Shown here: in pieces, positions 32,888 through 42,521 of the stretch | Position numbering within the stretch: position 1 is the stretch's first letter | How the letters are laid out: each line of letters opens with the position of its first letter | DNA from: Bryobacterales bacterium | Lineage (GTDB): Bacteria > Acidobacteriota > Terriglobia > Bryobacterales > Bryobacteraceae | Reading direction: 5' to 3' | Assembly (NCBI GenBank): GCA_003136575.1 | Contig: PLEX01000059.1 | Coordinates: forward strand, 2,964 to 46,162 | DNA: 43,199 nucleotides | Program-made: the position numbers and the translations under genes | Notes under the pieces: model-generated | Told to the model about the DNA's origin: nothing | The model's input: only the letters and a program-made list of their open reading frames with translations | Databases searched by the model: none

Positions 32888-33829
32888 TTGAATCACCGAT
32901 CCGTCATTCTTCCGTCTGAGACTTCACTTTCCGGGGAGCGCACGCAGGCTAAGGCGCCGGCTCCGGCCGGGCAATCTCGTTTGACCAGACGCGCACTGCT
33001 GGCCGCAACCGCTGGCGCGGCACTCGCGCAGTTGTCGGCCTTCGCCAAAATCCGGGGCGTGGAACTGGGCGTCACCGGACGCGCGGAAGACTTTCCGAAG
33101 GCCGATCAATATGGCTTCGATTATTTCGAGCCGGGCGGATCGGCCATCGCCGGAATGACGGATACGGCCTTCGCCGCTTTTCGCGATCAGGTGAAAGCGT
33201 CGCGCATTTACTGCCAGAGCGTGATCACGCTGATTTCCAATCCCAAACTGAAGGTCGTCGGCCCGGACGTGGATCTGGATGCCGTGTCTTCGTATCTCGA
33301 TTCCGCGTTCGACCGGTTCAAGAGCCTCGGCGTCAGCGTGGCTGTTTGGGGAAGCGCCGGTTCGCGCCGCGTTCCCGAGGGTTATTCGCGCGACACCGCG
33401 TGGGATCAGATCAAGGCTTTTCTGGCGCGCGCCGGCGTTATCGCAAAGGCAAAGCAAATAGTGATCGGCATCGAGCCGCTCCGAAAACAGGAAAGCAATA
33501 TCATCAACACCGGAGCTGAGGCGCTGAAGCTTGTGCATGAGGTCAATCATCCCGCCGTGCAGATGATCATCGATTATTACCACTTGCGCGTCGAGAACGA
33601 GGACCCCGAAATCGTGCGCACCGCCAAGGACCATATCGTTCATCTGCATTTCGCGAACCCTACCGGACGACGCTGGCCGCATTCGCCGGATGAAGACCCG
33701 GTTTACGGCAGATTTTTTCAGATCCTGAAGGAGATCGACTATAAGGGCGGGCTTTCGATCGAAGGCAACGGCACGTTTGAGGCCGACGCCGCGGCGAGTC
33801 TGGCGTTCTTCAAGAACGAACTGGCGTGA
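32888..33829 (+). CDS. Tat-exported sugar phosphate isomerase/epimerase-like protein (AP_endonuc_2 fold)
   Basis: 313 residues with a TTG start at 32888, GGGAG 7 nt upstream. A twin-arginine-type segment LTRRALLAATAGAALAQLSAF follows a 30-residue polar lead. The xylose-isomerase-like TIM barrel shows VELGVTGRAEDFPKADQYGFDYFEPG, IGIEPLRKQESNIINTG with metal-site Glu, MIIDYYHLRVENEDPE with Asp-x-x-His, DHIVHLHFANPTGRRWP and GGLSIEGN. These are the usual Glu, Asp/His, His and Glu metal ligands of the family. The substrate is a sugar or sugar acid, not specified. Next gene follows after 13 nt and is of the same family type. Confidence 0.85.
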   Translation: MNHRSVILPSETSLSGERTQAKAPAPAGQSRLTRRALLAATAGAALAQLSAFAKIRGVELGVTGRAEDFPKADQYGFDYFEPGGSAIAGMTDTAFAAFRDQVKASRIYCQSVITLISNPKLKVVGPDVDLDAVSSYLDSAFDRFKSLGVSVAVWGSAGSRRVPEGYSRDTAWDQIKAFLARAGVIAKAKQIVIGIEPLRKQESNIINTGAEALKLVHEVNHPAVQMIIDYYHLRVENEDPEIVRTAKDHIVHLHFANPTGRRWPHSPDEDPVYGRFFQILKEIDYKGGLSIEGNGTFEADAAASLAFFKNELA

Positions 33830-33842
33830 CAGGAGACGGCCT

Positions 33843-34856
33843 ATGTTCACCAGACGCCAATTCGGAAGACTCACGCTCGGCGCACTGCCGGCATCGGCGG
33901 CTTTAGCGAAAATTTCCTCGAAAATACACGGCGTTCAGATCGGCGTGGCGACGTACAGCTACAACCCTCTGCCGCGGCAGGGCATGCTGGACCTGATTAT
34001 CAGCTCCATGGTGGATGCCGGCATTGGCGATTGCCTGCTGAACCCTCCCGCTACCGAACCTCCCGATCTTGCCGAGAAGGCGAGACCGGCGCGGGGTGGT
34101 GGCGCGGGCCGCGCCGGAAGCGGTGGACAGGGACGCGGTGGCGCAGGTGCGAGCGGGGCATTCGGGCGGGGCGGCGGAGGCCGTGCGCCTCTGAGTCCGG
34201 AACAGGCGGCGGCCGCGGAAGCGCTGCACCAGTGGCATTTGACCGTGCCGCTCAGCTACTACACCTCCATGCGGAAGAGTTTTTCCGACGCCGGTCTGGA
34301 AATCTATATCTACGAACCTGCGCTTGGACCCAACACCTCAGACGCGGATATCGATCGGGCCTTTGAAGTGACCAAGGCGCTCGGCGCGCGTGTCCTGGCG
34401 GATGCTTACACGAAATTGGTCGCCAAGCGGGTCGCGCCTTTCGCCGAAAAGCATGGAATTAAGGTTGCGCTACAGGGCCGGCCAAACATGAACTCCACCG
34501 ACCCGGAAGCGATGGCGAAGCCCGCCGATTTCGAAGAAGTCATGGGCTACTCGAAGAACTTTGGCTCAAGTATCGACGTTGGCGACGCGACCGGCGGCGG
34601 CTGGGACGCGCTGAAGTTCATTGAGGACACACATTCGCGCGTTATTTCGCTGAACCTGAAGGACAAGACAAAGGCGGGAGTCAGCATGCCTTGGGGGCAG
34701 GGCGATTCGCGCATCAAAGACATTCTCCGTCTGATTCGCGACAAGAAATACCCGATTCGCTGCTATATCGATTGCGACTATGCGACGGCCGAAGGTGGCA
34801 GCCGGGTCGCGGACGTGAAGCGGTGCTTCGAATTCGCAAAGGCCGCTCTCGCGTAG
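33843..34856 (+). CDS. Tat-exported TIM-barrel isomerase-like protein with Gly-rich insert
   Basis: 337 residues from ATG 33843 (AGGAG 7 nt upstream), preferred to an in-frame start at 33777 inside the previous gene. Twin-arginine segment FTRRQFGRLTLGALPASA. The barrel shows VQIGVATYSYNPLP, LEIYIYEPAL, GARVLADAY, HGIKVALQGRPNMNSTDPEAM, SSIDVGDATGGGWDALKFIEDTHSRVISLNLKDK and YPIRCYIDCDY. These correspond to barrel strands of AP_endonuc_2 proteins, with some metal ligands less obvious than in the upstream gene. Residues about 83-118 are an inserted Gly/Arg/Ala low-complexity segment. It forms an operon with the upstream isomerase-like gene. Confidence 0.8.
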   Translation: MFTRRQFGRLTLGALPASAALAKISSKIHGVQIGVATYSYNPLPRQGMLDLIISSMVDAGIGDCLLNPPATEPPDLAEKARPARGGGAGRAGSGGQGRGGAGASGAFGRGGGGRAPLSPEQAAAAEALHQWHLTVPLSYYTSMRKSFSDAGLEIYIYEPALGPNTSDADIDRAFEVTKALGARVLADAYTKLVAKRVAPFAEKHGIKVALQGRPNMNSTDPEAMAKPADFEEVMGYSKNFGSSIDVGDATGGGWDALKFIEDTHSRVISLNLKDKTKAGVSMPWGQGDSRIKDILRLIRDKKYPIRCYIDCDYATAEGGSRVADVKRCFEFAKAALA

Positions 34857-35280
34857 TATCTGATTTCGGAGTTCGCGCACTTATACCCGCACCGCAGCTA
34901 AGCGAGAGGAAACGTTGCCGCCGGACGGAGAGTCATCTGTCGCCGCGAGACCCGCCAACCATCGGATGACGGTGAGTGGAGTTCGCACGATGACACTCGC
35001 CCGAAGACGCCTTTGTCTGCATCTGTCGCCTTTCTTTGTCGCAAGCGGACCCGGAAACTCGAAATCGATTGAAGAAGACGCTGTGGGGTTTTCGCTAAAA
35101 TCGAATTGCCGTGAGCTTCGAATAAGAGTGGCGCGATGCGGCTGCCCAGGTGGTGCCGATCTTACGGAAATGAACTTTGGGAGTTTGGTGAGCAGGGTCT
35201 GATGCGCCGCCGTCCGGCGAGTATCAACGATGCGGTAATCCGGCAAGAAGAACGACGCATCGCGTGAAGGGAAAATCGAA
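34857..35280. other. Intergenic region, no gene recognised
   Basis: 424 nt between the isomerase-like pair and the MOSC gene. A short AT-rich patch TTTTCGCTAAAATCGAATTG (35089-35108) could hold a -10 box, but no -35 fits. No other signal is visible. Confidence 0.4.
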
Positions 35281-35946
35281 ATGCACGTGGCGGAGTTATG
35301 GCGATACCCGGTGAAATCCATGGCCGGAGAGCAATTGCAAATGGCCCGGGTGACGCCAACGGGGATCGAGGGCGACCGTATCGTCCAGGTTCAGAATGCC
35401 CGCGGACGCACAGCGACATCGAGGACCTATCCCGGGCTGCTGGGGTTCAAAGCCACGCTGGACGAGCGCGGCGAACCTCTGGTTGACGGCCTCCTGTGGA
35501 GCGATCCGGCGGTGCTCGCGGCAGTGAGGGAGGTCGTCGGACCCGGCGCGCGCCTGGTTCGCGACGAGTCTCCGTCACGATTCGACATCCTGCCCTTGCT
35601 GGTCGCGACGGATGGAGCACTGGCCGAGTTTGGACGCGACCGCAGGCGGCTTCGGCCAAACATCGTCGTTGGGGGCGTCACCGGTTTGGATGAGCGGGAG
35701 TGGGAGGGCGGGCGGTTGTTTGCGGGAAGTGCGGTGATCGACATACACGACCTCCGCGGCCGCTGTATCATGACTAGCTTCGACCCGGATACGCTTGCCC
35801 ACGACCCGGAGGTACTTCGGGATATCGTCCGGCGCTTTGGCGGTAAACTCGCGCTGAACTGCGACGTAGCCACACCGGGAGAGATACGGGTGAATCAGGA
35901 AGTCGCGGTCGTGCGGCCGGGGACGGTATTGAATGGCAGATCCTGA
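35281..35946 (+). CDS. MOSC-domain protein (molybdenum-cofactor sulfurase C-terminal-like)
   Basis: 221 residues. The N-terminal MOSC_N beta barrel is ELWRYPVKSMAGEQL and GIEGDRIVQV. The MOSC core carries FDILPLLVATDGAL, RRLRPNIVVGG and the conserved Cys in LRGRCIMTSFDPDTLAHDPEVLR, the residue that binds sulfur or molybdenum in mARC/YcbX-type proteins. Shorter than mARC (about 330) and lacks a ferredoxin domain. ATG follows a weak SD (AGGGAAAAT). The end overlaps the next gene by 14 nt, so the two are coexpressed. Confidence 0.9.
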   Translation: MHVAELWRYPVKSMAGEQLQMARVTPTGIEGDRIVQVQNARGRTATSRTYPGLLGFKATLDERGEPLVDGLLWSDPAVLAAVREVVGPGARLVRDESPSRFDILPLLVATDGALAEFGRDRRRLRPNIVVGGVTGLDEREWEGGRLFAGSAVIDIHDLRGRCIMTSFDPDTLAHDPEVLRDIVRRFGGKLALNCDVATPGEIRVNQEVAVVRPGTVLNGRS

Positions 35947-36478
35947 CGCTACAGCGCGGCGCCGGCAGCGGCTGCGAAGGAGCTTCCAGCCGGCGCGCGT
36001 TCGGTTGCTCTTTATTGGTGAAGCTCCTCCCGCTTCGGGAAGATTCTTCTACCAGCGCGACTCAGGGCTGTACCGGGCGATGCGGGACGCGTTCTTGAGC
36101 GTTGATCCTTCGATCGACGATGAAACTTTTCTGCCGGCGTTCCAGGCCTCAGGTTGCCACCTGATCGATCTTTGCCGGCAGCCGGTTGATCGTCTGGATT
36201 CACATTCGCGACGTGCCATCTGCCGGTCCAGTGAGAACTCGCTTGCGCGCGCGATCGCCCGGCTTCAGCCGGACATGATCGCGACCCTGCTGCGATCTGT
36301 CGAAGGTAACGTCGCGCGATCTGCCTCACGCGCGGGGTGGCGAGGGCGATTCATTTATCTGCCGTACCCGGGAAGGTGGTCGCGGCACAAGAGCGCCTTC
36401 CTGCGCGCACTCATTCCCGAAATCCAGGCCCTGATGCATGGTTCCGGCGGCGGCCTTCTGGATTCAGTTTCGGTCTGA
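35933..36478 (+). CDS. Uracil-DNA-glycosylase-superfamily-like protein
   Basis: 181 residues, ATG inside the MOSC gene end. RVRLLFIGEAPPASGRFFYQRDSGLYRAM resembles the GEAPG motif region of UDG-superfamily (family 4-like) proteins. FLPAFQASGCHLIDLCRQPVDRL and FIYLPYPGRWSRHKSAFLRAL fit later strands, the latter near the HPSP-like position but without the His. There are no Fe-S cysteines like those of family 4/5 enzymes. Catalytic ability is therefore doubtful; nucleotide or nucleic-acid binding is plausible. It converges with and overlaps the following minus-strand gene by 15 nt. Confidence 0.55.
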   Translation: MADPDATARRRQRLRRSFQPARVRLLFIGEAPPASGRFFYQRDSGLYRAMRDAFLSVDPSIDDETFLPAFQASGCHLIDLCRQPVDRLDSHSRRAICRSSENSLARAIARLQPDMIATLLRSVEGNVARSASRAGWRGRFIYLPYPGRWSRHKSAFLRALIPEIQALMHGSGGGLLDSVSV

Positions 36479-37468
36479 GACAATTCTCAAGGCCTCGCCG
36501 AAACGTGCCTGCCTCATGCTTTGCAAGAGTCGTGCCCAATGAACTCTGCCGTAGACCCACTTCGCGTGGTTATCGGACAGACCGGCCTCACGCGCCCAGA
36601 AGCGCCGCTGGAAGTCATCGTATGAAGGTACGGGTTCGCCCCAATCGATCGGCTTACCAGGCGATTCGAGCGGCAAGAACGCCATGGCGTAGAACATATG
36701 TGCCAGCTGTCTCATCAGATAGAATCGGGCTCGCTGGTACTCGTCCGGAAGTTCGCCGAGATATTCTCGAAGAAAAGCCTCTTCCGTAGATTCATTGGTG
36801 ACGATCATGTTCGCAACCACCGCCAGATCGGCATAACGATCGTTCTGGAAAGCCGCCTCCCAGTCCACCAGCCACAGACGGGTGCCGTCGAACAGCATGT
36901 TGTCCGGCTTGAACAGGTCGTTATGGCCCGGCGCCGAATCGTGACGCGGGTACACATCGGCCAGTTGCTGGTAGCAGGCGAAAAGCTCCTCAGTCTCGCT
37001 TTCGTGCAGAATCCCCGATGTCCGGAACTTTTGGAGGAAACCCTCGAGGGCAGGCCCTTTGTTCAGCAGGAACGTGCAAGTCGTATTGAATGGTGCCGCG
37101 GGGAACGGCGGCAAGGCGTGCAGGGCTCGCAGCGCGGCGGGAATCCGAACCAGCGCTTCGGCCGCCGGAAAAGGTATCGCCTCCACGAAATCTGTGATGG
37201 AGATCCGGTCTTCGGCGCTGGCGTACCTGACGCGCGGTGCGAGGCCTGCATCGGCCGCCGCCTGCATGCAGGCGAAATGACGGGCCATATCGCCGGGACG
37301 CGTGTTGATTCGCAGCAGATACGCGGATCCTCGCAGTACGATGCGAAAAGCCCGGTTCGAGCCGGGCCGCTCCGTCAGGTCGCGGATGTCTTCGAATTCA
37401 GTAACACCGAAGGCCCTGTTCAGTCCGAGAAGCACGGCCTCGCTCTTGTCATGTGGAATCGTAAGCAT
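36464..37468 (-). CDS. APH / choline-kinase family phosphotransferase
   Basis: 334 residues with a eukaryotic-like kinase fold. The N-lobe includes GSNRAFRIVLRGSAYLLRINTRPGD with a probable ATP Lys or Arg replaced in the LLRI strand. The catalytic loop PGHNDLFKPDNMLFDG has the HND-x5-N form of aminoglycoside phosphotransferases and choline or ethanolamine kinases, and the metal Asp is in LWLVDWEAAFQNDRYADLA. HND and VDWE make choline/ethanolamine or thiamine-type small-molecule kinase more likely than an antibiotic resistance enzyme. It stands alone on the minus strand, with a 221-nt upstream region shared with the next gene. Confidence 0.85.
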   Translation of the reverse strand: MLTIPHDKSEAVLLGLNRAFGVTEFEDIRDLTERPGSNRAFRIVLRGSAYLLRINTRPGDMARHFACMQAAADAGLAPRVRYASAEDRISITDFVEAIPFPAAEALVRIPAALRALHALPPFPAAPFNTTCTFLLNKGPALEGFLQKFRTSGILHESETEELFACYQQLADVYPRHDSAPGHNDLFKPDNMLFDGTRLWLVDWEAAFQNDRYADLAVVANMIVTNESTEEAFLREYLGELPDEYQRARFYLMRQLAHMFYAMAFLPLESPGKPIDWGEPVPSYDDFQRRFWAREAGLSDNHAKWVYGRVHWARLLQSMRQARFGEALRIVSDRN

Positions 37469-37689
37469 AAAGCGATTATGATCGATTTTCTACCTGCGGG
37501 CGAGTTTTAATTCCGCTGCGAGGCAACATGTATCTTGTTTATTTTCTTCTAGTTAGACTTCTTTATCATCGCCCTGCTATCCTGAAATTGGGGGACATTG
37601 AGTCTGCCTGGCTCCGGCGGTCTCGGTAAGACGGCGTCATTCGCAACACAACCGCCGGCAATTCGCGCAATAATAACGATGGTGAATTT

Positions 37690-38961
37690 ATGAAAACCTC
37701 GGCACATCTCGTCAGCATCACTTCGTCGCGATATCTGGCGGTCGCAACGTTATTCCTGACGGCGTCCCTCGCCTGGCCGCAAGCGCCCGCTACCGGAGCC
37801 GGCGGCCGTGGCGGAAGCGGACGCGGCGGTGGACGCGGACTTGCGGCGGATCCCGATCATCCAATCATGCCCATCGGTACGCATATCCCGGATTTCACGC
37901 TTCCGGGCGCGGATGGCAAGACGCACAGCCTGAGCGAATGGGAAAACGCCAAAATCCTCGCCGTCGTCTTCGAATGCAATCACTGCCCCGTTTCTCAGAT
38001 CTATGAGGGCCGGATCAAGAAGCTTTACGACGATTACCGCGGCAAAGGCGTGGCTCTCGTGGCGATCAACCCAAACAATCCGGGATCGGTTCGCCTCAAC
38101 GAGGAAGGCTACACCGATCTTGAGGATTCTCTGCCGGAAATGAAACTCCGGCTCGCCGACCGCCACATCACCTGGCCTTATCTCTACGACGGCGAAACGC
38201 AGATCACCGCGACGAAGTTCGGCGTGGTCGCAACACCGCACATCTATCTCTTCGATCAGGAGCGGAAACTTCAGTATCAGGGGCGTATCGACGACAATCA
38301 AAACGAAACGCTGGTCAAGTCGCAGGACGCCCGCGCGGCTCTGGACGCGTTACTCGCCGGCAAGCCGGTGCCCGTCGCCAACACGCGCGCCTTCGGCTGC
38401 TCAACCAAATGGCTTTCAAAGGCTGTAGGTTCGCAATCGCGCGGCGCTGAGATGGAGAAGATCAAGGCCGAACCAGTGAAGCTCGATGCGGCCGGCGCGG
38501 ACGAACTGAAGAAGCTGCGCGCCAATTCCTCCGGCAAGGTTCAGGTTGTGACCTTCTGGTCGACCAGGTGCGCAAGCTGCGCCGATAGCTTCCACGATCT
38601 CGAGACGACCTATCGCATGTACCGGTTGCGCGCCTTCACGCTGGTCACGGTCGCGACCGACCCGGTGGCCGATAAACCGGCGATCATGGATTTCCTGCAG
38701 AAACAATATGCGTCCGGCACGAACCTTCAGTCGAGCGTCGACCACAATGCGCTGCAGGCGGCATTCGGCGAGAAGTGGAAGTCGAACTCGCTGTTCACCG
38801 AGGTCATCGCGCAGGATGGCACGGTCATTTACAAGAAGGAAGGGAAGCTCGCGTTGCCGGACCTGTTGGCTCTGCGGCGTATCTCCCAGGCGCACATGCC
38901 CGACACGGGTTATCCCGGCAGCCAGGCGTATTGGCAGGAAGATTTCAAGAAGTCGCGCTGA
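37690..38961 (+). CDS. Exported protein with two thioredoxin-fold domains
   Basis: 423 residues. Signal peptide (about 1-31, ending LAWPQ), a Gly/Arg-rich segment (about 36-52), then two redoxin-like domains. The first (about 57-220) has IPDFTLPGADGKTHSLSEWENAKILAVVFECNHCPVSQIYEGRIKKLY with a C-x-x-C (CNHC) redox pair and a later VVATPHIYLFD cis-Pro loop. The second (about 255-400) has VQVVTFWSTRCASCADSFHDLETTY, again C-x-x-C, and an LFTEVIAQDGTVIYKKEG end. Tandem domains could act as a periplasmic thiol reductase or peroxiredoxin-like protein. The upstream region is 221 nt, with no clear promoter. Confidence 0.82.
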   Translation: MKTSAHLVSITSSRYLAVATLFLTASLAWPQAPATGAGGRGGSGRGGGRGLAADPDHPIMPIGTHIPDFTLPGADGKTHSLSEWENAKILAVVFECNHCPVSQIYEGRIKKLYDDYRGKGVALVAINPNNPGSVRLNEEGYTDLEDSLPEMKLRLADRHITWPYLYDGETQITATKFGVVATPHIYLFDQERKLQYQGRIDDNQNETLVKSQDARAALDALLAGKPVPVANTRAFGCSTKWLSKAVGSQSRGAEMEKIKAEPVKLDAAGADELKKLRANSSGKVQVVTFWSTRCASCADSFHDLETTYRMYRLRAFTLVTVATDPVADKPAIMDFLQKQYASGTNLQSSVDHNALQAAFGEKWKSNSLFTEVIAQDGTVIYKKEGKLALPDLLALRRISQAHMPDTGYPGSQAYWQEDFKKSR

Positions 38962-38978
38962 CGTTTGCGAGCCGGAGT

Positions 38979-40529
38979 TTACGCGCGCGGAAGGACGGCC
39001 TCGATCAGCCTCGGCCCCGGTTCGCGCATGGCGGCGCTGAATTCGCGGATGAACTCGTCGGCGGTGGTAGCGCGCACAGCCTGAACGCCGAGGCCTTCGG
39101 ACAGTTTGACCCAATCCGGCTCGGGGCGCGTAAGATCGAGCATTTCGTCGGCGCGCGGGCCGACTGCTCTCGCGCCGGTTCGCTTCATCTCAACATCTAG
39201 AATGCGATATCGCCGGTTCGCGAGAATCACGATAGTAACGTCGAGCTTTTCGCGCGCCATGGTCCAAAGCGATTGGAGCGTATACATGGCGCTGCCATCG
39301 GCTTCGAGCGCGACCACCTTACGGCCGGGACACGCCAGCGCCGCGCCCAGCGCAACGGGAAGACCCTGGCCGATCGATCCGCCGGTAACGGGGAGATGAT
39401 CGTGCGCCGGAGCGCCCGCCAGATGGGGCCAGATCTGCTCGTTGCAGGAAACGGTTTCGTCCGAAAAGATCGCGCCCTCCGGCACTAACGCGCCCACGGC
39501 GCGGCCGATGGCCGAAGCGGTGAGCGGCTCGCCAATCGGCAGCACCGGTCGAACAACAGCGCCAGATGGGACGGGACCTGCGCCAAGTTCGTCGGCCAGC
39601 CATTCAAGTGCGCCGATGCCATCCTGATCCAGCGATGCGAGGATATCGAAAACGCATTCCGGCGGCGCAAGCGTCGATCTCAACCCCGGATACCCGAAGA
39701 ACGATACCGGCCGTTTAGCTTCCACAAGGATCATCCGCTCAATTCCCGCGAGCAAAGATTGCGCCGCTTCGGGAAAATACGGGATGCGTTCGGCGGCGGG
39801 GATGTCGCCGCCGCGCGCCATTCGCGCCCCGTTGCGATTGGCAAAAACTCTCGCTGCTGTAGCGGCCCGAAGCCGATCCGCCGCGCGAAGGCCACGCGCC
39901 TGAAGAGCAGTTCCGCTGAGAAGCAAACCAACGGGCCGCCCGGAACGAAGCACAGCGGCGATATCGCGGACTGTTTCGCTTGTCGGCAACGATCGTGGCG
40001 CCCGTTGAACAACTGCGCCAGGCTCTCCCGCCTCGCTCCACGAGTAGTCCGCCGGCACAATCAGGCTCGCGACTTGTCCCGGCGGGCCAATAGCGGCTGT
40101 GATCGCTGCCGACGCCGTCTCGCCCATCGCCGAGGCACATTCCAGCGTTCGGACCCAGCCCGATACCGGCCGCGCGAATGCCTCAATGTCGGCAGTTAGC
40201 GGCGCATCCTGTCCGAGGTGCTGCGTGGAATGTTCGCCAACGATATTGACGATGGGGGACAACGCCTTGCGGGCGTTATGAAAATTGGCGAGGCCGTTGG
40301 CAAGACCCGGGCCAAGGTGCAATAAAGTGGCTGCCGGCCTTCCGGTCATGCGGGCATATCCATCGGCCGCGCCGGAACAAACGCCTTCAAACAAGCCAAG
40401 CACGCCGCGCATGCCGGGTACCCGGTCGAGCGCCGAGACAAACTGCATCTCGGACGTTCCCGGATTCATAATGCATAAATCCACGCCATTGGCGAGCAGG
40501 GTTCGGAGAAGACACTCGGCGCCGTTCAT
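38979..40529 (-). CDS. ThDP-dependent enzyme, acetolactate synthase / IlvX-like
   Basis: 516 residues, three ThDP-enzyme domains. The N-terminal Pyr domain has the catalytic Glu in LGLFEGVCSGAADGYARMTG. The central domain has VRDIAAVLRSGRPVGLLLSG. The C-terminal PP domain has GGSIGQGLPVALGAALACPGRKVVALEADGSAMYTLQSLWTMAREKLDVTIVILANRRYRIL, where the ThDP motif reads ADGS rather than GDGS. This matches a family often called acetolactate synthase large subunit (ilvX) but with benzoylformate-decarboxylase-like features. The true reaction is unknown; a 2-keto-acid decarboxylation or carboligation is expected. Its start is 33 nt downstream of the ATP-grasp/SET gene, so likely cotranscribed with it. 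Confidence 0.85.
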   Translation of the reverse strand: MNGAECLLRTLLANGVDLCIMNPGTSEMQFVSALDRVPGMRGVLGLFEGVCSGAADGYARMTGRPAATLLHLGPGLANGLANFHNARKALSPIVNIVGEHSTQHLGQDAPLTADIEAFARPVSGWVRTLECASAMGETASAAITAAIGPPGQVASLIVPADYSWSEAGEPGAVVQRAPRSLPTSETVRDIAAVLRSGRPVGLLLSGTALQARGLRAADRLRAATAARVFANRNGARMARGGDIPAAERIPYFPEAAQSLLAGIERMILVEAKRPVSFFGYPGLRSTLAPPECVFDILASLDQDGIGALEWLADELGAGPVPSGAVVRPVLPIGEPLTASAIGRAVGALVPEGAIFSDETVSCNEQIWPHLAGAPAHDHLPVTGGSIGQGLPVALGAALACPGRKVVALEADGSAMYTLQSLWTMAREKLDVTIVILANRRYRILDVEMKRTGARAVGPRADEMLDLTRPEPDWVKLSEGLGVQAVRATTADEFIREFSAAMREPGPRLIEAVLPRA

Positions 40530-40562: not shown

Positions 40563-42521
40563 TTAGCGAGCTCCGGACGTCGGATCTGCAAGGGCTCTGA
40601 CCTCTTCGCGCAGTCGGAGCCTTCGGCGAATGAAGTCCGCCGCCGCATTGCGGTCCAGCGCATCCCTGTGCGTCTGCGATGCGCCCTGAATCAGTCCGAG
40701 GCAATCCGGCGCGCCGCAGCGGCACTCAAACGGTTCGGCCAGATCCCATTCGGTCGAAGGATAGAAGTAACGCAATTCGTCGCCCGGTTCGATGTCGCGG
40801 AACGCGCGCAACGCGCCTGCTTCGATATCGAACGCCACATTCGGCGAACACGAATGGTTAATGTAGCGCAACTCAAAAGGCTCCGGCTCGGCATGTTCCG
40901 CTTCCCCGATCTGCACCGTCCACCGGCTTGGTTCGCCCGACCGCTTGCGCCATGCAAGCAGAACGATCTCTTCGCCCGCAAGCCATGCGCGGCGCGCGAC
41001 AAGTCCCAGACCAAAGCTGTTCTGCACGATTTCATAAACTGGACGCCAGTCCGGCGATGTATTGTGCCAGATGCCGCGCACAAAATCCGAAACGTGGTCC
41101 CCATATTTTTGGCGCAACCGCGGCAGCAAATGGTCGCTGCCAAGTATCGCCTGACGGCAATCCGCCGCGCCGCAGCGGCACTCGAAAGGGGACATCGCGG
41201 GGCCGCAAAATGTGGCGTAATCCACGGTCAACTCTTCGCCTGTCGGAATGTCCCGACGAGCAACCAGATCGAGCCCGTCGAGCCATGTATTGGGATCGCA
41301 GGAGTGATTCACCGGACGCCAGTCGTCGGGATTGTCGGACCACATCACGTGCAGGCCGGCTGTGACGGGCCACGCGTACTGGTCGAACCACATTCTGCGC
41401 AGCCCCCGCCATTCGCGCTCCACCCGGCGTCGCGAAACCAGCGTGTGCGGCTGTTCCTCGTACCGCACCGCGACCTCTCCTGCGCGCACCGTTCTCGACG
41501 CAAACATACCGAAGCCGAGCCCCGGCGTGAACTGCAGCTCCCAGGCTCGTTGCGCGCCGTCGCGGCGGCGGAAAGCGCACGCAATCAGGTGTTCGAGAAA
41601 CCCGCGATGGCCGGCCGGATCCGCCGCGAGGATAAAATCGGCGCTGCCGTAGCTACCCTCGGCGTAGAAGACGCCGCAGTTCGGATTGATTTCGAGAACA
41701 TAGATCCGGCCCTCCGCGTCCACCCGGATATCGCACCTTCCGTAACCCGACCCGCCGAGGGCTGCGAACGTGAGGGCGGAAGCCTCTTTCAGACGGCGGG
41801 CCAGCTTCGCGTCCTCAACCCGAGACGCCTGCATGGACTCGTATTCTTTCCACTTCAGCTCGAAATGCTTGAACGATTCGCCCGGAGGAAAACGGAACTC
41901 CACAGGCTCCAGCGCCCACGCGGGTTCGGACTCGTCCCGTGCCTCAGCCACAAGCACGGTGAATTCGCGGCCTTCGATGAATTCCTCGATCAGCGCCGCG
42001 CCAAATTCCCCGATCAGCCGCGCCGCCTGTAATTGCAGGGCTTCGGCATGGTTCACCACTGAATCTCTGGTGAGGCCAACGCTGGCATAGCCCTGTGGAT
42101 GCTTGACGATCATGGGGAAACGCAGCTTCGACACAGCCCGCTCCACGTCGCCGGGCCGGCGAGCGACGACGTAGGCGGGAAACATCACGCCAGCCGAATG
42201 GCAGGCCATCTTCATTGCCTCCCGGGAGGGATCGTAGAACCGCGATCCAGCGCCGGTGAAAGCCATGTTGACTTGCTCGAGCGCCTGCACTACCTCAATG
42301 CCTGCTCGGTCTTCGTCTTTCGCGCCGTCGCACAGGTTGATCGCGACATCGAATCCCTGGCGCGCGATCTCGGTCAGGTGCCGCCAGGCCAGCGCCTTCG
42401 CGATGTTGAAGTGCGTGGTCTTGGCGTCAGGCAGAAAACGCGACGGATCGCAGGTGGAATCGAAATCGCGAAAAGGCGCGTCGGATCCTTCATAAGACGA
42501 ATGCAGAACGGCGATTTTCAT
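40563..42521 (-). CDS. ATP-grasp (D-Ala-D-Ala ligase-like) protein fused to two SET domains
   Basis: 652 residues. The ATP-grasp domain (about 1-320) starts MKIAVLHSSYEGSD. It has the adenine/phosphate Lys region RFPMIVKHPQGYASVGL, the EEFIEGREFTVLV strand, and the Mg-binding YGRCDIRVD...VLEINPNCG with Asp264, Glu277 and Asn279, so ligase chemistry looks intact. SET1 (about 330-456) has GLGFGMFASRTVRAGE, NHSCDPN (405-411), DYATF and post-SET CRCGAADC. SET2 (about 498-607) has GLGLVARRAWLAGE, NHSCSPN (555-561), RYFYPS and CRCGAPDC. SET domains are SAM-dependent lysine methyltransferases. The combination suggests ligation of an amino acid or peptide plus methylation of a protein; this is inference. 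The ThDP-enzyme gene follows 33 nt downstream. Confidence 0.9.
   Translation of the reverse strand: MKIAVLHSSYEGSDAPFRDFDSTCDPSRFLPDAKTTHFNIAKALAWRHLTEIARQGFDVAINLCDGAKDEDRAGIEVVQALEQVNMAFTGAGSRFYDPSREAMKMACHSAGVMFPAYVVARRPGDVERAVSKLRFPMIVKHPQGYASVGLTRDSVVNHAEALQLQAARLIGEFGAALIEEFIEGREFTVLVAEARDESEPAWALEPVEFRFPPGESFKHFELKWKEYESMQASRVEDAKLARRLKEASALTFAALGGSGYGRCDIRVDAEGRIYVLEINPNCGVFYAEGSYGSADFILAADPAGHRGFLEHLIACAFRRRDGAQRAWELQFTPGLGFGMFASRTVRAGEVAVRYEEQPHTLVSRRRVEREWRGLRRMWFDQYAWPVTAGLHVMWSDNPDDWRPVNHSCDPNTWLDGLDLVARRDIPTGEELTVDYATFCGPAMSPFECRCGAADCRQAILGSDHLLPRLRQKYGDHVSDFVRGIWHNTSPDWRPVYEIVQNSFGLGLVARRAWLAGEEIVLLAWRKRSGEPSRWTVQIGEAEHAEPEPFELRYINHSCSPNVAFDIEAGALRAFRDIEPGDELRYFYPSTEWDLAEPFECRCGAPDCLGLIQGASQTHRDALDRNAAADFIRRRLRLREEVRALADPTSGAR

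Follow-up and report, generated by a model that had tools for sequence, protein, structure and literature searches.

A bacterial ATP-grasp ligase fused to two SET domains of different origin, one of them related to the methionine methyltransferase BurB

The established role of SET domains is the methylation of lysines in proteins, and ligases of the D-alanine--D-alanine ligase (Ddl) type join free amino acids. In graspetide systems, ATP-grasp enzymes occur together with tailoring enzymes and exporters, and it is in this combination that they and the L-amino-acid ligase pathways resemble the genes described here. We know of no graspetide or L-amino-acid ligase pathway with a SET methyltransferase, and our literature search found none.

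Two bacterial proteins are exceptions among the SET domains, as far as the accessible parts of the reports go (PMC12542666, PMC7496086). BurB of Burkholderia thailandensis (PDB 9l4t, 9l4v) is a SET-domain L-methionine S-methyltransferase, which methylates free methionine at the sulfur (PMC12542666). Among methionine, MTHB and MMPA only methionine was a substrate (PMC12542666; PMC7496086). The counterpart from Streptomyces mobaraensis, which is 35% identical to BurB, likewise acts on free methionine (PMC7496086).

A SET-like domain and an ATP-grasp-type domain are united in the eukaryotic protein TTLL12, but according to the accessible text it has one SET-like domain instead of two, this domain is N-terminal, and the ATP-grasp domain is of the TTL type; critical residues are lost and activity was not seen in vitro (PMC3520985). 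By title, no description of a bacterial ATP-grasp-SET architecture was found among the open-access papers listed. The terms "ATP-grasp" and "SET domain" occurred together in the open-access text of the TTLL12 paper and of a paper on drug side effects (PMC4029543), neither of which is by its title about a bacterial protein. Neither "ATP-grasp" nor "ligase" occurs in the accessible main text of a review on SET proteins in bacteria (PMC3980110). The fusion architecture is undescribed in the searched literature and is best read as a variant of the ATP-grasp peptide-ligase pathways with SET-type methyltransferases.

The fusion protein and its ligase domain

The stretch of DNA that we analysed (the window, 43,199 nt) carries the fusion gene at 40563..42521 on the minus strand, where its domains and motifs and the neighbouring ThDP gene also lie. 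It is a single uninterrupted ORF (42521..40563) of 652 codons with an ATG start and a TAA stop. The first-pass annotation had described an intact D-Ala-D-Ala-ligase-like ATP-grasp domain and two complete SET domains in one polypeptide, and both descriptions held. The ATP-grasp ligase domain (residues 1-320, 41562..42521) has a Ddl fold and matched Dala_Dala_lig_C (PF07478) at residues 118-283 with 64.1 bits (cut-off 24). The SET family (PF00856) was matched over two stretches with 84.4 bits (gathering cut-off 22.4). SET1 (residues 323-484, 41070..41555) contains an NHSC motif at residues 405-408 (41298..41309) and the post-SET motif CRCGAADC at residues 448-455 (41157..41180). In SET2 (residues 503-641, 40599..41015), NHSC is found at residues 555-558 (40848..40859) and the post-SET motif CRCGAPDC at residues 600-607 (40701..40724). 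NHSC and the post-SET cysteines (CxCxxxxC) are intact in both copies, and GxG motifs open each SET domain (residues 334-338 and 504). Structures were modelled from the alignments A4 and A6 and not from A3, which seemed to put lone SET domains onto SET1; the AlphaFold2 model of the fusion protein, based on an 18-row alignment, reached a mean pLDDT of 89.3 and a pTM of 0.71.

The three-domain layout is also present in eight other genomes. In seven of these the gene is open (L011-L017, 59-67% identity), and in one (L020) the copy is split across two frames. Chance or a frameshift or assembly artefact was rejected because seven other genomes carry open three-domain genes: the ATP-grasp-SET-SET fusion is a real, conserved enzyme architecture. 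Separate SET genes elsewhere together with a frameshift here had been named as an argument against a fused enzyme. A separate SET2 gene indeed occurs in seven other fusion loci, but the fusion in the window is open and found in other genomes.

The best fold match of the ligase half was 8evz (Foldseek, E 3.7e-19), and the best 50 matches were all D-Ala--D-Ala or D-Ala--D-lactate ligases. Residues K140, S147, E179, E180, E186, K223, R262 and D264 are invariant across all 18 alignment rows, K104 and E277 are conserved in 17 and N279 in 16 of these rows. These residues presumably have the ATP-grasp and Mg-binding roles that are assigned to them from work on Ddl. The stretch C-terminal to E277-I-N279 commonly reads NPNC.VFY....GSAD in the alignments and differs from the corresponding stretch in Ddl. 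The two exceptions at N279 are L012 and L013, which both contain tandem copies (L012 8455-11920, L013 8617-12106). There, the N of E-x-N is retained in the upstream ligase, whose SET domain is shortened; in the downstream two-SET copy S replaces this N, and another partial SET with NHSA lies upstream. This suggests divided roles or decay.

Different origins of the two SET domains

We compared the SET domains of the window with two profiles, one built from 15 free-standing SET domains without the window sequence (A2) and one built from 14 SET1 domains with the window sequence included (A5). SET2 scored 164 bits with the lone-SET profile versus 45 bits with the SET1 profile. SET1 reached 278 bits with the SET1 profile, which contains its own sequence, versus 54 bits with the lone-SET profile. 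In a SET tree (IQ-TREE, 48 rows), in which the bootstrap was not settled and BurB formed a long branch, 8 SET2 rows, 16 lone SET domains and BurB fell on one side with a support of 97/89. All 19 SET1 rows, MLL1 and three other bacterial SET domains were on the other side. The SET2 domains of the two-SET forms made up a single clade (99/98). A tandem duplication was rejected, since the profile scores and the tree separate SET1 from SET2. The sequence comparisons indicate that the two domains are of different origins: SET1 belongs to the ligase, and SET2 is a captured stand-alone SET domain.

The nearest solved relative of SET2 is BurB and not a histone enzyme, by sequence, tree and fold. When searched against the PDB, the lone-SET profile retrieved BurB first (94.3 bits) and MLL1 next (48.2 bits). 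With the SET1 profile the two were nearly tied (BurB 60.9 bits, MLL1 59.4 bits), and the tree places SET1 on the MLL1 side. Among 20 near-invariant columns of the lone SET domains, window SET2 has 19, BurB 16, the SET1 rows 9-12 and MLL1 8. A separate model of SET2 (pLDDT 92.5) had three BurB chains as its top PDB matches with E-values of 1.8e-11 to 1.5e-10, the next match being at 9.0e-8, although the rmsd to BurB was large (7.4-7.8 A). BurB differs from SET2 in that it is a single domain of 172 aa without a ligase and in some of the SAM- and methionine-contact positions, as far as these are given in the accessible text (PMC12542666). Of the BurB SAM-contact positions R42, H72, H93, R133 and H138, H93 is kept in window SET2, W, E and R stand at positions 72, 133 and 138 respectively, and R42 lies outside the alignment.

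Gene neighbourhoods and distribution

We compared 41 fusion loci, many of which are related and 17 of which come from one phylum sample. SET2 is fused in nine of them (the window, L011-L017 and L020). Seven others combine a fusion that has one SET domain with a nearby gene of the SET2 type (L021, L022, L025, L026, L029, L050, L147). In the remaining 25 loci SET2 was absent within 6 kb or the contig, some contigs ending early. Since SET genes are rare (the genome of the window, of which the assembly is 83% complete, has two), SET2 neighbours in 7 of the 32 loci without a fused SET2 would by rough judgement be well above chance. The fusion has another ATP-grasp gene of a distinct kind (AG_B) as its neighbour in 15 of 41 loci (26 without), and an ABC exporter in 4 (L016, L020, L021, L050; 37 without). 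The ABC transmembrane gene of L147 (PF13748, 144.7 bits) is outside this count. The neighbour scan of the 41 loci found neither a second ATP-grasp ligase nor an ABC exporter beside the fusion of the window.

Several of these genes overlap by 4 nt, namely SET2 and the fusion in L021, the fusion and SET2 in L025, and AG_B and the fusion in L050, L139 and L143. The gene order in L050 is SET2, ABC exporter, ATP-grasp, ATP-grasp, ATP-grasp-SET. In this locus SET1 is decayed (36 bits with the SET1 profile), and the ABC gene matched MsbA-related models best, followed by peptide exporters, all below the cut-off among the matches listed. When 423 neighbour genes of 43 loci were compared, the ABC exporter was the sole family besides ligases and SET proteins that was common to five of the labelled groups; three groups shared two families that resemble regulators or kinases. 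We also inspected 20 loci with the ligase alone, which comprise 19 of the 41 ligase-alone matches from three phylum samples and L031. Locus L031 has SET2, AG_B and ABC genes nearby, and L107 has a different SET gene at a distance of 7 nt. The association of these genes recurs over several phyla.

Other neighbours were seen in single loci or groups of loci. A large gene of one family lies near the fusion in L139, L141, L142, L144, L145, L147 and L148, all from one phylum sample; the copy in L139 matches Peptidase_M14, and this may be plain local synteny. The broken two-SET copy of L020 (5635-9530) has a cupin_8/JmjC-like gene and a gene of the LicD family as flanking genes. In L022 (2892-7049) a DUF3326 gene, present as two ORFs, is located between the lone SET gene and the fusion. 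Lone SET2-type genes of Bacillota (L033, L038, L039, L040) are found near YheC/YheD-type ATP-grasp genes. We gave this proximity little weight, because three of the four loci look syntenic and the genes are multi-copy. In L040 a lysine-2,3-aminomutase-like gene adjoins the lone SET gene, which hints at lysine derivatives as possible substrates of the lone-SET family. In L060 (contig C221 of the window's genome, 461-2710) and L058 (7179-9840), apart from the SET system, a GNAT-like gene follows two Ddl-like ATP-grasp genes in tandem, and a similar pair of ATP-grasp and GNAT genes adjoins the SET-system genes in L031 (8427-10152).

The distribution of the gene was followed in phylum searches, in which few candidates were scored per genome. 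At E <= 1e-25, 10 of 396 genomes of the own-phylum sample matched, with 2 fusions (the window and G135), 6 cases with the ligase part only and 2 weak matches. The phylum of L014 (record title Planctomyces) gave 30 matches in 246 genomes (2 fusions, 26 ligase part only, 2 weak), that of L023 (Hyalangium) 14 in 195 (2 fusions, 9 ligase part only, 3 weak), and that of L031 (Gemmatimonadetes) 23 in 200 (22 fusions, 1 ligase part only). Further homologues carry the record titles Bacteroidota, Proteobacteria, Methylomirabilis and Zixibacteria; most of these are metagenome-assembled genomes (MAGs), and titles are fallible. A contig titled Klebsiella pneumoniae (L027, MAG) has a ligase-SET gene that groups with those of Acidobacteria and Planctomycetes, and its title is probably wrong. 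By record titles and phylum samples, fusions are present in some eight phyla. In three of the phylum samples (own phylum, L014 and L023), ligases that stand alone, with no SET domain at all, are common.

In a tree of 65 ATP-grasp rows, stand-alone ligases group with the fused ones in a single clade (100/99), AG_B forms a clade of its own (100/99), and the weak match L088 is outside. Most stand-alone ligases sit among the fused forms. If the root is right, this scatter suggests that SET1 was lost more than once. The two-SET forms are mixed with one-SET forms in a clade of 13 rows (100/98), which together with the single SET2 clade would fit one capture of SET2 followed by losses. Among the nearest relatives, 3 of 61 genomes matched at E <= 1e-20 (the window, G020 and G057). 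The fusion gene was found in none of the 18 genus mates at this threshold, so that it was likely gained recently by transfer.

Proposed function and alternative explanations

A role in joining and methylating, as suggested in the first-pass annotation, is plausible for a single polypeptide that unites a Ddl-type ligase fold with two SET domains with intact motifs. On balance, and by a narrow judgement, we consider the protein to be a multifunctional small-molecule enzyme in a route to a short methylated peptide or amide that needs neither the ribosome nor a non-ribosomal peptide synthetase (NRPS). The Ddl-fold ATP-grasp domain would activate a carboxylate as acyl phosphate and join it to an amine, so that an amide is formed. 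SET2, and probably also SET1, would transfer methyl groups from SAM either to one of the amino acids used or to the amide once it is made, with sulfur (for which BurB is the precedent) or nitrogen as the acceptor atom. In the fuller clusters of relatives the second ATP-grasp ligase may extend the product and the ABC exporter may carry it out. We infer the small-molecule substrates, the order of the steps and the export. Several results count against this reading: the near-tie of BurB and MLL1 for SET1 and its place on the MLL1 side, the changes to W, E and R at SAM contacts of SET2, the large rmsd between SET2 and BurB, the long BurB branch in a tree with unsettled bootstrap, the many fusion loci without SET2, AG_B or ABC genes, the frequency of SET-free ligases, and the scores of the L050 ABC gene below the cut-offs listed, which leave its cargo unspecified.

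More tentatively, and with some doubt, one may think of a widespread and undescribed class of natural-product pathways independent of ribosome and NRPS, in which Ddl-fold ATP-grasp and SET domains, often fused, build short sulfonium or methylammonium peptides that are exported in some lineages. If this is true, SET domains would have a second bacterial life as small-molecule methyltransferases coupled to ATP-grasp ligases. Fusions of a BurB-side SET domain to an amide-forming ligase would make the substrates of bacterial SET domains testable with single purified proteins, and might bring to light methylated peptides of a class not seen so far.

The first-pass annotation had suggested attachment to a protein and methylation there. 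The ATP-grasp domain would then add an amino acid or a tag to a protein or a cell-wall peptide, and the SET domains would methylate target lysines. The NHSC and post-SET motifs of both SET domains are common to histone enzymes, and SET1 stands with MLL1 and other bacterial SET domains in the tree, which is in line with this idea. However, SET2 groups with BurB, the ligase fold is of the type that joins free amino acids, and a conserved target or precursor gene was not found near the loci. We therefore regard the marking of a protein as unlikely, and as less likely than the formation of a small methylated amide or peptide. It is rather improbable that the ligase and the SET domains mature a ribosomal precursor peptide in a graspetide-like (RiPP) pathway. 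Known graspetide systems likewise combine ATP-grasp enzymes, tailoring enzymes and exporters, and a membrane-protein-like ORF of 58-60 aa, called as a gene, is common to L142, L144 and L148. Against such maturation, the ligase is Ddl-like, and a conserved precursor peptide was not found among 424 small ORFs from 38 of 43 loci (L016 and L022 were left out of the scan, and L031, L138 and L139 had no scannable ORF remaining). All matches were between pairs of loci from a single phylum, so that none of these ORFs is conspicuous as a precursor peptide. That the fusion is a housekeeping D-Ala--D-Ala ligase which incidentally bears SET domains was rejected and is hardly credible. Its closest Pfam, NCBIfam and PDB relatives are Ddl enzymes, and it shares their fold and ATP-grasp residues, but its score with TIGR01205 (D-Ala--D-Ala ligase) was 72.3 bits, far below the curated cut-off of 245.65, and a separate true Ddl, encoded on a different contig of the window's genome, scored 360.9 bits.

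The gene next to the fusion (38979..40529) encodes a ThDP enzyme of 516 aa, which matched NCBIfam PRK07586 with 709 bits (cut-off 363). It begins 33 nt past the stop of the fusion on the same strand, and no terminator-like site was found in this gap in the terminator listing. One could assume that the enzyme supplies the acid or amino acid for ligation and methylation in a pathway of this one lineage, and the common strand, the short gap and the unlisted terminator agree with this, but we consider it very improbable. The ThDP gene adjoins the fusion in only one of 41 loci, the window itself. Close homologues (E <= 1e-100) are present in 18 of 36 relatives besides the own genome, including 16 of 18 genus mates, none of which has the fusion, and in three sister genomes (G012, G007, G001) the gene has other neighbours. 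Because of the single locus and the homologues in genus mates, the ThDP gene is probably not part of the ligase-SET system; of the link made in the first-pass annotation, the 33-nt distance stands and the functional connection is not supported. In G012 the ThDP gene directly adjoins homologues of the window genes at 32981 and 33843. The stretch 32981-38979 of the window seems to have gained insertions, since several genes there separate what adjoins in G012. An ORF at 35933-36478 of the window showed a sub-threshold match to uracil-DNA-glycosylase (21.8 bits, cut-off 24.3).
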